Assembly: GCA_947629515.1 (NCBI GenBank)
Contig: CANRDY010000011.1
Coordinates: forward strand, 1 to 38,473
Direction: 5' to 3'
From: an uncultured Clostridia bacterium
GTDB lineage: Bacteria; Bacillota; Clostridia; Christensenellales; Borkfalkiaceae
Length of the DNA stretch: 38,473 nt
This document shows, piece after piece, positions 128-33,584 of this stretch. The translations under genes and the position numbers were made by a program. Position 1 is the stretch's first letter. Each line of letters starts with the position of its first letter. The notes beneath the pieces were generated by a model that saw only the letters and a list, made by a program, of their open reading frames with translations, was not told the origin of the DNA and did not search any database.

Positions 128-262
128 CACCACAACTTTTTTGCGCCGGCAAAAAAATTTCACTTGCGGCGGAACGCCGCAAATTTCACTTTTGCCGTCA
201 GGCAAAAATTTCACTTTTTTGCGCCAGCAAAAAAATTTCACTTTTTGCGTAAGTAAAAAATT
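128..262. repeat. Array of five variable hairpins with constant ATTTCAC spacers
   Basis: After a CACCACAAC boundary there are five consecutive inverted repeats: TTTTTTGC/GCAAAAAA (137-156), TTGCGGCG/CGCCGCAA (164-182), TTTTGCC/GGCAAAA (190-207), TTTTTTGC/GCAAAAAA (215-234) and TTTTTGC/GTAAAAA (242-258). Loops are 3-4 bases (GCCG, GAA, GTCA, GCCA, GTAA). The four internal spacers are the same 7 bases, ATTTCAC. Stem sequences differ but stay complementary. A related array in the opposite orientation, with the same CACCACAAC boundary, lies at 33501-33584. No gene lies here. Confidence 0.85.
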
Positions 263-369: not shown

Positions 370-795
370 ATGGCAAAGAAGATTACCGCGGTAGTCAAAT
401 TGCAACTCCCCGCAGGTAAAGCCACGCCCGCACCCCCCGTAGGTTCTACGCTGGGTCCCCACGGCATCAACATTCCCGGCTTCACCAAGGAGTTCAACGC
501 CAAAACGGCGGCGCAGGCGGGACTTATAATCCCCTGCGTAGTCACCATTTACCAGGACAGAAGTTTCACTTTCGAGCTGAAAACACCCCCCACGCCCGTA
601 CTTATCAAAAAGGCGTTGGGGCTTGAAACGGCGAGCGCGCGTCCCAACAAGGACAAGGTAGGCAAGCTCACCAAAGCTCAGGTGGAAGAGATCGCAAAGA
701 CCAAGCTCCCCGATCTGAACTGCACCGATCTGGAATCGGCTAAGAGCATGGTCAAGGGCACGGCGCGCTCGATGGGCGTTACGGTAGAGGAATAA
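370..795 (+). CDS. rplK: 50S ribosomal protein L11
   Basis: L11 binds the GTPase-associated region of 23S rRNA at the base of the L7/L12 stalk. The 141-residue length is normal. The N-terminal domain shows PPVG (22-25) and LGPHGINI (28-35), and the C-terminal rRNA-binding domain includes [12 protein letters not shown] (71-82) and RSMG (133-136). The ATG follows AGGAGG by 10 bases. It is the first gene of a two-gene unit with rplA. The usual upstream neighbours secE-nusG are not in the 369 bases before it, which hold repeats and the L1-type leader. Confidence 0.98.
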
Positions 796-33500: not shown

Positions 33501-33584
33501 GTGAACTTTTTGCCTTGCGGCAAAAGTGAAATTTGCGCTACGCGCAAGTGAAATTTTTTTACTACGTAAAAAAGTTGTGGTGAA
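33501..33584. repeat. Array of three variable hairpins with GTGAAAT spacers
   Basis: The reverse-orientation counterpart of the array at 128-262. Units: TTTTGCC-TTGC-GGCAAAA (33508-33525), TTGCGC-TAC-GCGCAA (33533... wait-free call: 33533-33547) and TTTTTTAC-TAC-GTAAAAAA (33555-33573). The spacers at 33526-33532 and 33548-33554 are both GTGAAAT. The right boundary GTTGTGGTG is the reverse complement of CACCACAAC, which starts the other array. Confidence 0.85.

Follow-up and report, generated by a model that had tools for sequence, protein, structure and literature searches.

Tagged hairpin arrays between the genes of an uncultured Clostridia bacterium and scattered relatives: a tentative reading as a REP-like DNA repeat

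The window, by which we mean the whole stretch of 38,473 nucleotides that was analysed, holds two arrays of short hairpins joined by the 7-base tag ATTTCAC, and the same design recurs between the genes of the source genome and in scattered members of its order. We tentatively read these arrays, with slightly less than even confidence, as a dispersed, intergenic, non-coding DNA repeat of tagged single-strand hairpins, REP-like in kind and with a putative trans-acting reader. Each unit consists of the tag and then a short near-perfect palindrome, whose loop, on the tag strand alone, usually takes the form C(GNA)G or C(GNNA)G. When single-stranded, as at replication forks, the tag strand would fold into very stable DNA mini-hairpins, and a putative trans-acting protein would recognise tag plus hairpin. 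Such recognition, acting through copying of the arrays or through a job on DNA, may keep tag and pairing and free the sequence of the stems, which would diverge by ordinary mutation, later compensation, whole-unit exchange and rare template switching. Such a DNA-strand hairpin element, with a trans-acting reader that knows the tag, would fit the finding that shape, loop type, tag and, in the related genus g68, orientation relative to replication are kept while stem sequence is free.

Arrays of the window and the source genome

The first array, at 128-259 near the start of contig C11, comprises the lead CACCACAAC and five hairpins linked by four exact ATTTCAC tags. Hairpins, stems and exact spacers are present at 128-262 as an earlier note on this DNA had described them; the fifth stem, given there as TTTTTGC, does form a hairpin, but its other arm, GTAAAAA, gives a G.T pair. 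Hairpin 5 is followed by ATTACC, with no fifth tag there. Upon RNA folding of positions 110-275 all five hairpins formed (z = -4.57), and none of 200 shuffled sequences was equally stable. An Rfam scan of the window returned as its sole match the ribosomal protein L10 leader (RF00557, 1558-1707), an ordinary regulatory RNA, and nothing at the arrays; no element body was read beside either array. In relatives nusG precedes rplK, as judged by reading, and it was not seen before rplK on the window contig.

Table 1. Features of the two hairpin arrays in the window and of the neighbouring gene.
Feature	Positions	Strand	Basis
Lead CACCACAAC, usual 5' end of source-genome arrays	128..136	+	sequence; CACCACAACTTTT at 22 genome places
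Hairpin 1, TTTTTTGC-GCCG-GCAAAAAA	137..156	+	sequence, RNA folding
Tag ATTTCAC	157..163	+	pattern match
Hairpin 2, TTGCGGCG-GAA-CGCCGCAA, most frequent unit (18 of 164 units read)	164..182	+	sequence, folding
Tag ATTTCAC	183..189	+	pattern match
Hairpin 3, TTTTGCC-GTCA-GGCAAAA	190..207	+	sequence, RNA folding
Tag ATTTCAC	208..214	+	pattern match
Hairpin 4, TTTTTTGC-GCCA-GCAAAAAA	215..234	+	sequence, RNA folding
Tag ATTTCAC	235..241	+	pattern match
Hairpin 5, TTTTTGC-GTAA-GTAAAAA, one G.T pair	242..259	+	sequence, RNA folding
L11 ribosomal protein gene; the first array lies about 110 bp upstream	370..795	+	context
Second array: lead CACCACAAC, hairpin TTTTTTACGTAGTAAAAAA, tag, TTGCGCGTAGCGCAA, tag, TTTTGCCGCAAGGCAAAA, then AGTTCACC	33502..33582	-	pattern match

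The source genome as searched (1.70 Mb, 92.6% complete) contained 96 (50 + 46) matches to ATTTCAC-N13-24-ATTTCAC, compared to 0 + 0 for the reversed-pattern control. Reading of 35 stretches around two-tag matches, together with the window, yielded 43 array clusters (the second cluster of L069 being doubtful) and 164 units. Their repertoire is limited to 67 different units, with TTGCGGCGGAACGCCGCAA occurring 18 times, and CACCACAAC or a variant opens most of the arrays. Among distinct units standing between exact tags, 33 of 34 were at least 80% Watson-Crick symmetric, as against 0.4% of shuffled units, and the single unit below this threshold is a hairpin with one extra A in its run. Only nine non-Watson-Crick pairs were found in the 160 scored units, four of the 164 being left unscored. 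Several contigs (C11, C14, C19, C28, C43, C49 and C54) start or end near arrays, so the assembly was probably broken by these repeats.

None of the 43 clusters lies inside a script-called gene; the arrays are intergenic. Where a called gene stood on each side (35 arrays), the gap was codirectional in 27 cases, convergent in 7 and divergent in 1. The shortage in divergent gaps is only suggestive, because these account for just 9 of the 68 gaps of at least 100 bp in the same stretches. Such an arrangement bears on an unlikely alternative, namely that the arrays work as RNA, whether within 5' or 3' untranslated regions or as small RNAs, and that a protein binds the unpaired AUUUCAC between the hairpins. 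The strand of the window array does fold as RNA, 34 of the 35 arrays lie downstream of at least one neighbouring gene, many occupy codirectional gaps, and in these gaps 19 of the 27 run along the genes. Furthermore, many REPs are believed to act as RNA, according to the available part of PMC3733652. However, the other 8 arrays, of the 35, are antisense to both neighbours, the 19:8 excess reaches only p 0.05, and the divergent-gap shortage is weak evidence for the reason given.

Occurrence in relatives, viral contigs and plasmids

In a set of 41 genomes that included the source, the 24 congeners carried no more than three two-tag matches apiece, none of the listed ones being palindromic. A three-tag pattern matched 31 of 395 genomes of the order, while its reversed control matched 4 genomes, and palindromic arrays were read in 25 of the 395, source included. 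Among the 31, G039, G103, G269 and G288 proved on reading to hold plain repeats, G120 and G163, represented by counts rather than listed sequence, were left out of the 25, and the case of G199 is weak; in G039 the two-tag units are palindromic although the three-tag matches are plain repeats. Array genomes are scattered over many families, and within one genus arrays may number dozens in one species and none in the next. G263, a congener of the source genome, carries arrays with wholly different stems. In a phylum sample of 398 genomes, holding no other member of the order, palindromic arrays were found in the source genome alone; six other genomes matched the pattern, and their units were non-palindromic in all six. 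Counts for order and phylum refer to exact ATTTCAC only.

The earlier note had allowed that other copies might hold random, non-complementary sequence between the tags. In the order this was not the case: 147 of 166 distinct units were at least 80% paired, in a set excluding L186 (source genome) and the plain repeats L190, L201, L204 and L208. In GTDB contigs 36 of 41 units were so paired, and of the five below the threshold four came from non-clostridial records; shuffled units reached 0.4 to 2% across the sets. Among named GTDB contigs the TTTT...AAAA type occurred in 20 records. In 16 of them, from Clostridia or Bacillota, the units were palindromic save for one exception, while the four other records (Bacteroidetes, Lacihabitans, Treponema and one labelled Campylobacter) had non-palindromic units. 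The signal is therefore the tag plus palindrome and not the pattern alone, and within what was searched this combination belongs to Clostridia and a few viral-collection contigs.

In viral contigs the three-tag pattern matched at least 120 stretches. The 80 analysed gave 81 clusters, 77 of them non-palindromic and classed as plain repeats; the four palindromic clusters lie on three contigs (L256, L300 and L314), and no array of the TTTT..AAAA type was found in viral contigs. A de novo scan of all the 120 viral stretches retrieved yielded 7 ATTTCAC arrays. Plasmids gave a weak 32-base match in 12 E. coli plasmids (E 0.05), and L314 matched plasmids over 14% of the query, at its two tRNA-Ser genes and not at the array. 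Carriage by phages or plasmids was rejected on these grounds, viral arrays being few and plasmid matches weak or outside the array.

Several order genomes carry a bipartite form, in which a terminator-like hairpin is followed by GTGAAAT-tagged hairpins, an AAATCC...GGATTT closing stem and then ATTTCAC-tagged hairpins of opposite sense. Similar copies were also found on a named Oscillospiraceae contig (L134) and on L314, a 38 kb contig of the viral collection. Of the 16 bipartite loci scanned, 12 had a called tRNA gene. The inverted tag sense between the halves was seen in L094, L096, L198, L218, L223, L228, L229, L249 and L314; these elements are common to several families, and their stems are similar but covarying (TTGAT..ATCAA, AAT..ATT). 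In tRNA-side copies a terminator-like hairpin, read off rather than counted, separates the tRNA from the array, which argues against the arrays acting as RNA elements.

Stems, loops and tags

Cells with a double-sided stem change exceeded 300 column shuffles in every length class listed. For units of length 17 in the order set (43 units), 111 double-sided cells were counted versus a shuffle maximum of 34, with pairing at 92% versus at most 51%. The excess is clear in the order set (lengths 13 to 19) and modest in the source genome (9 cells versus a maximum of 6); when pairs rather than cells are counted, those with double-sided change may fall under the shuffle maximum, as for length 17 (6 versus 7). 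Comparison of the close species G418 and G450 over 24 orthologous units, these being the ones pairable by eye among the matches listed, revealed 13 identical units, 10 one-sided stem changes, no two-sided change and 5 loop changes. This gives no support to templated hairpin synthesis, which the earlier note named, besides selection for structure, as a means of changing the two arms at once; it implies that pairing is lost by single-base steps in one arm, with mending or replacement following later.

Template switching may nevertheless occur now and then, as suggested by three source-genome units that are exact loop-inverted forms of commoner units with the arms intact; loop inversion is one footprint of template switching according to the available part of PMC8794818. 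The same three units favour the highly improbable alternative that template switching in replication alone, without function or recognition, keeps the stems perfect, and the available text of PMC8794818 holds that template switching can make and mend stems and that in E. coli it occurs more often on the leading strand. Such a neutral process, however, leaves unexplained the constant 7-base tag and its shift to another tag, and the close species show one-sided rather than two-sided changes. Moreover, loops should then invert freely, yet in distinct units at least 80% paired, pooled over the three sets, GNA loops outnumbered TNC loops by 100 to 2, and GNNA loops outnumbered TNNC loops by 49 to 2.

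Closing pairs were C-G in 67 of 71 GNA loops and in 67 of 68 GNNA loops. RNA would favour GNRA loops; the third base of the GNNA loops was a purine in 27 units and a pyrimidine in 22, showing no such preference, which argues against an RNA element. Terminator-like hairpins in the same stretches had GNA in only 1 of 13 triloops; this row alone was used from the control of other hairpins, since that control was read on both strands and its balance of GNA and TNC is uninformative. DNA mini-hairpins with GNA loops are extraordinarily stable, and the melting point with GAA lies 6 degrees higher than with GTA (Yoshizawa 1997, as cited in the available part of PMC6479982). From this loop chemistry we infer that the loops probably resemble the known stable DNA mini-hairpin more than they do RNA tetraloops. 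Mismatches in distinct units were G.T in 11 cases and A.C in 5, a slight excess that would favour RNA although the cases are too few to decide between RNA and DNA.

The tag constant in the earlier note holds for the source genome as ATTTCAC (147 of 160 tags, with ATTTAAC in 12 and ATATCAC in 1), but relatives also use AATTCAT, ATATCAC and ATTTCAT, and the consensus across relatives is AWWTCAY. In the G437 stretches 50 tags were read, namely AATTCAT 26, ATTTCAC 9, AATTCAC 7, ATTTCAT 7 and ATATCAC 1, so that this genome mixes several tags and the change is incomplete. G137 carries four hairpins at the L241 site, and their tags are ATTTCAC or ATTTCAT. The first two hairpins of G437 are the same as in G137, the third has a covarying outer pair (G-C to A-T) and the fourth is different, while AATTCAT stands in all four G437 linkers where G137 has ATTTCAC or ATTTCAT. 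A tag swap with the same first stems would point to a trans-acting factor; no protein able to read the tag was found.

At the L241 site G450 has no array, and its orthologous stretch (L399) shows low-complexity AATTCATAATTCAC and AATTCTGAATTC repeats where the array would stand. Another site, L244, carries hairpin arrays in 4 of 17 genomes (G137, G450, G322 and G437) and none in the other 13, and the units differ among the four, except that those of G137 and G450 are the same. Comparison with empty sites gave no target-site duplication, the intergenic DNA of the relatives being too different. Units of the form CGTGAGCG..CGAACG and its variants in G036, G139, G176, G429 and G431 make an imperfect hairpin with tandem G.A mismatches in the same place; they recur across families and fall below 0.8 paired.

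Orientation, candidate movers and known repeats

In one related genus, g68 (family f4), array orientation is tied to replication. On the 3.41 Mb contig of G322, 100 of 109 two-tag matches were listed (44 of 44 forward, 56 of 65 reverse) and merged into 48 arrays; among these, the ATTTCAC strand was lagging-sense (C-rich) in 43 of 48 (p 1.4e-8). The switches in orientation coincide with GC-skew sign changes at 0.85-1.02 and 2.55-2.72 Mb, as judged from 20 evenly spaced samples, one of which, at 2.21 Mb, was contrary. In G418, where the matches listed covered about 67 of the 68 on the forward strand and 33 of the 77 on the reverse strand, all 26 forward-strand arrays among these lie at 1.18-2.50 Mb, where the sampled skew is negative (+ strand C-rich), and one reverse array (2431894) lies inside this forward half. 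For G450 the matches listed were 50 of 74 forward and 0 reverse; for this reason the reverse arrays of G418 and the 20 of 20 arrays of G450 were left uncounted. Non-palindromic rows (G418 1541123 and 1634761, G450 61604) were dropped. Evenly spaced stretches, 60 of 8 kb and 20 of 20 kb, were read on both strands and held 16 lagging-sense arrays out of 17 (G322 3 of 3, G418 6 of 6, G450 7 of 8), the G450 exception lying next to one of opposite sense. Another six stretches of 20 kb held no array. G418 and G450 share many arrays and are not independent, while G322 is more distant.

Genes in the sampled stretches had leading:lagging ratios of 66:53 in G322, 59:62 in G418 and 72:44 in G450. Since genes lack a matching strand bias, transcription does not explain the orientation of the arrays in g68. 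That orientation tracks replication and not genes argues further against an RNA element and suggests that the hairpins act at the DNA level. Replication orientation was not evident in the source genome, where neighbouring arrays on a contig agreed in 8 of 17 pairs; by local skew 28 of 41 arrays lay on the C-rich strand (p 0.03), a bias that C-rich repeats beside the arrays may cause.

KOPS, Chi and the fork-trap Ter sites are orientation-bearing chromosome sites. The arrays might likewise be working sites that tell direction and owe their persistence to selection rather than mainly to self-copying, a reading that we regard as rather improbable. It would accommodate the orientation in G322 and in the evenly spaced stretches of all three genomes, which the genes do not follow, and the presence of arrays in four genomes at the one site L244 despite differing units. 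It would also fit the crowding of the listed G322 arrays around the GC-skew terminus, 28 of 48 lying within 0.5 Mb versus 14.1 expected (p 4e-5), a figure that the nine unlisted reverse rows would lower slightly. On the other hand, a vital system should not be missing from most sister species, and the arrays are patchy within genera; orientation was not evident in the source genome, and KOPS, Chi and Ter need no hairpins. We return to the DNA repeat with a trans-acting reader as the preferred reading. A replication-coupled form of the element is also conceivable, though on balance we doubt it: tag and extra-stable GNA-loop mini-hairpins would be installed or kept mainly lagging-sense and served by a putative tag-reading protein, whose preferred tag would have shifted from ATTTCAC towards AATTCAT in at least one species.

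A REP/BIME-like family mobilised on single-stranded DNA by a RAYT or an IS200/IS605-type Y1 transposase is very unlikely. The tag 5' of the palindrome, the intergenic copies and the strand polarity are REP-like, TnpAREP reads tag plus hairpin as far as the available text of PMC8266576 goes, and the f4 array genomes tested (G137, G322, G392 and G418) all have two to four Y1 genes. The tag, however, is neither GTAG nor CGTC, and PF01797, which covers Y1 transposases including RAYTs, had no match in the source genome (92.6% complete). Among 27 array genomes PF01797 matched 10, in 9 of them above the cut-off, as compared with 10 of 38 relatives with few or no arrays (G000, G036 and G039 left out), a small difference. 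Moreover, the surroundings of Y1 genes in G322, G418, G137, G392 and G246, read as 14 stretches each of about 5 kb, contain one array (L548 in G137, about 1 kb from the Y1 gene), which is about the expectation for scattered arrays. A Y1 enzyme is thus not required, and no association with the arrays was seen in the stretches read, although one might still act in g68; as mover in the source genome a RAYT/IS200 transposase was rejected, being absent there and present in just 10 of 27 array genomes. Y1 genes of about 250 aa were seen at L542, L547 and other stretches around f4 Y1 genes, and two of the matches were read as frames of 249 and 251 aa.

With REPs and BIMEs the arrays share short palindromes, an unpaired motif at one end and many intergenic copies, and subfamilies with alternative complementary stem residues are described in the available part of PMC3733652. 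They differ in the tag (ATTTCAC versus GTAG/CGTC), in the head-to-tail order of units with several different stems per array, in loops mainly of the C(GNA)G or C(GNNA)G type, in the orientation tied to replication in one genus and in that no RAYT was found in the source genome; CGTC REPs likewise occur without an associated RAYT (PMC3733652, in its available part). The arrays thus have the many intergenic short palindromes of REP/BIME, and lack here both the GTAG/CGTC tag and a RAYT, for which reason we do not file them as REPs despite the broad REP-like outline. IS200/IS605 (IS608-type) ends resemble them in forming a single-strand DNA hairpin with a short guide sequence 5' of it, and a change of guide retargets the element, both according to the available text of PMC8266576; the arrays, in contrast, have many hairpins per copy and no single element body with a transposase gene. 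IS608 and ISDra2 are reported to target the lagging-strand template (PMC6006769, available part), whereas in g68 the lagging-sense strand is the one that bears GNA.

Known extragenic palindromes keep a family sequence, while the arrays keep structure, loop type and tag and leave sequence largely free, as though a component of the cell reads shape plus tag. The orientation in g68 makes testable the old question of what interspersed palindromes do (at forks, in segregation or in copying), and the arrays offer many independent hairpins for measuring the evolution of paired bases. The earlier note's view that this is not CRISPR stands. As in CRISPR, a constant piece alternates with a variable one; a CRISPR repeat is tens of bases long with unrelated spacers, whereas here the constant piece has 7 bases, the variable piece is self-complementary and units are common to dozens of loci per genome. 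No cas genes were found among the nine window proteins scanned in Pfam. Identity with integron attC sites is unlikely, the units being about 25 bases long without genes between them. As the earlier note had it, the design matches no named element: Rfam gave none for the window, nor did literature titles and the opening lines of abstracts outside subscription journals.

BOX-type repeats of pneumococcus are intergenic and modular with a variable number of inner modules, as the arrays are, but the sequence of their inner module is fixed, whereas the array hairpins vary. Further kinds of interspersed module, each combining a constant linker of its own with variable palindromes, for example AAAACAGCGGGTGTCCGCTGTTTT, GTTGAACAGCC...CGTTAAGACAC and AAGCGGAACGCTT, were seen in the flanks of source-genome arrays (L057-L091) and in positions 1-127 of the window, which resemble other interspersed repeats of this genome; its intergenic regions look like ordered mosaics of tag/palindrome modules.
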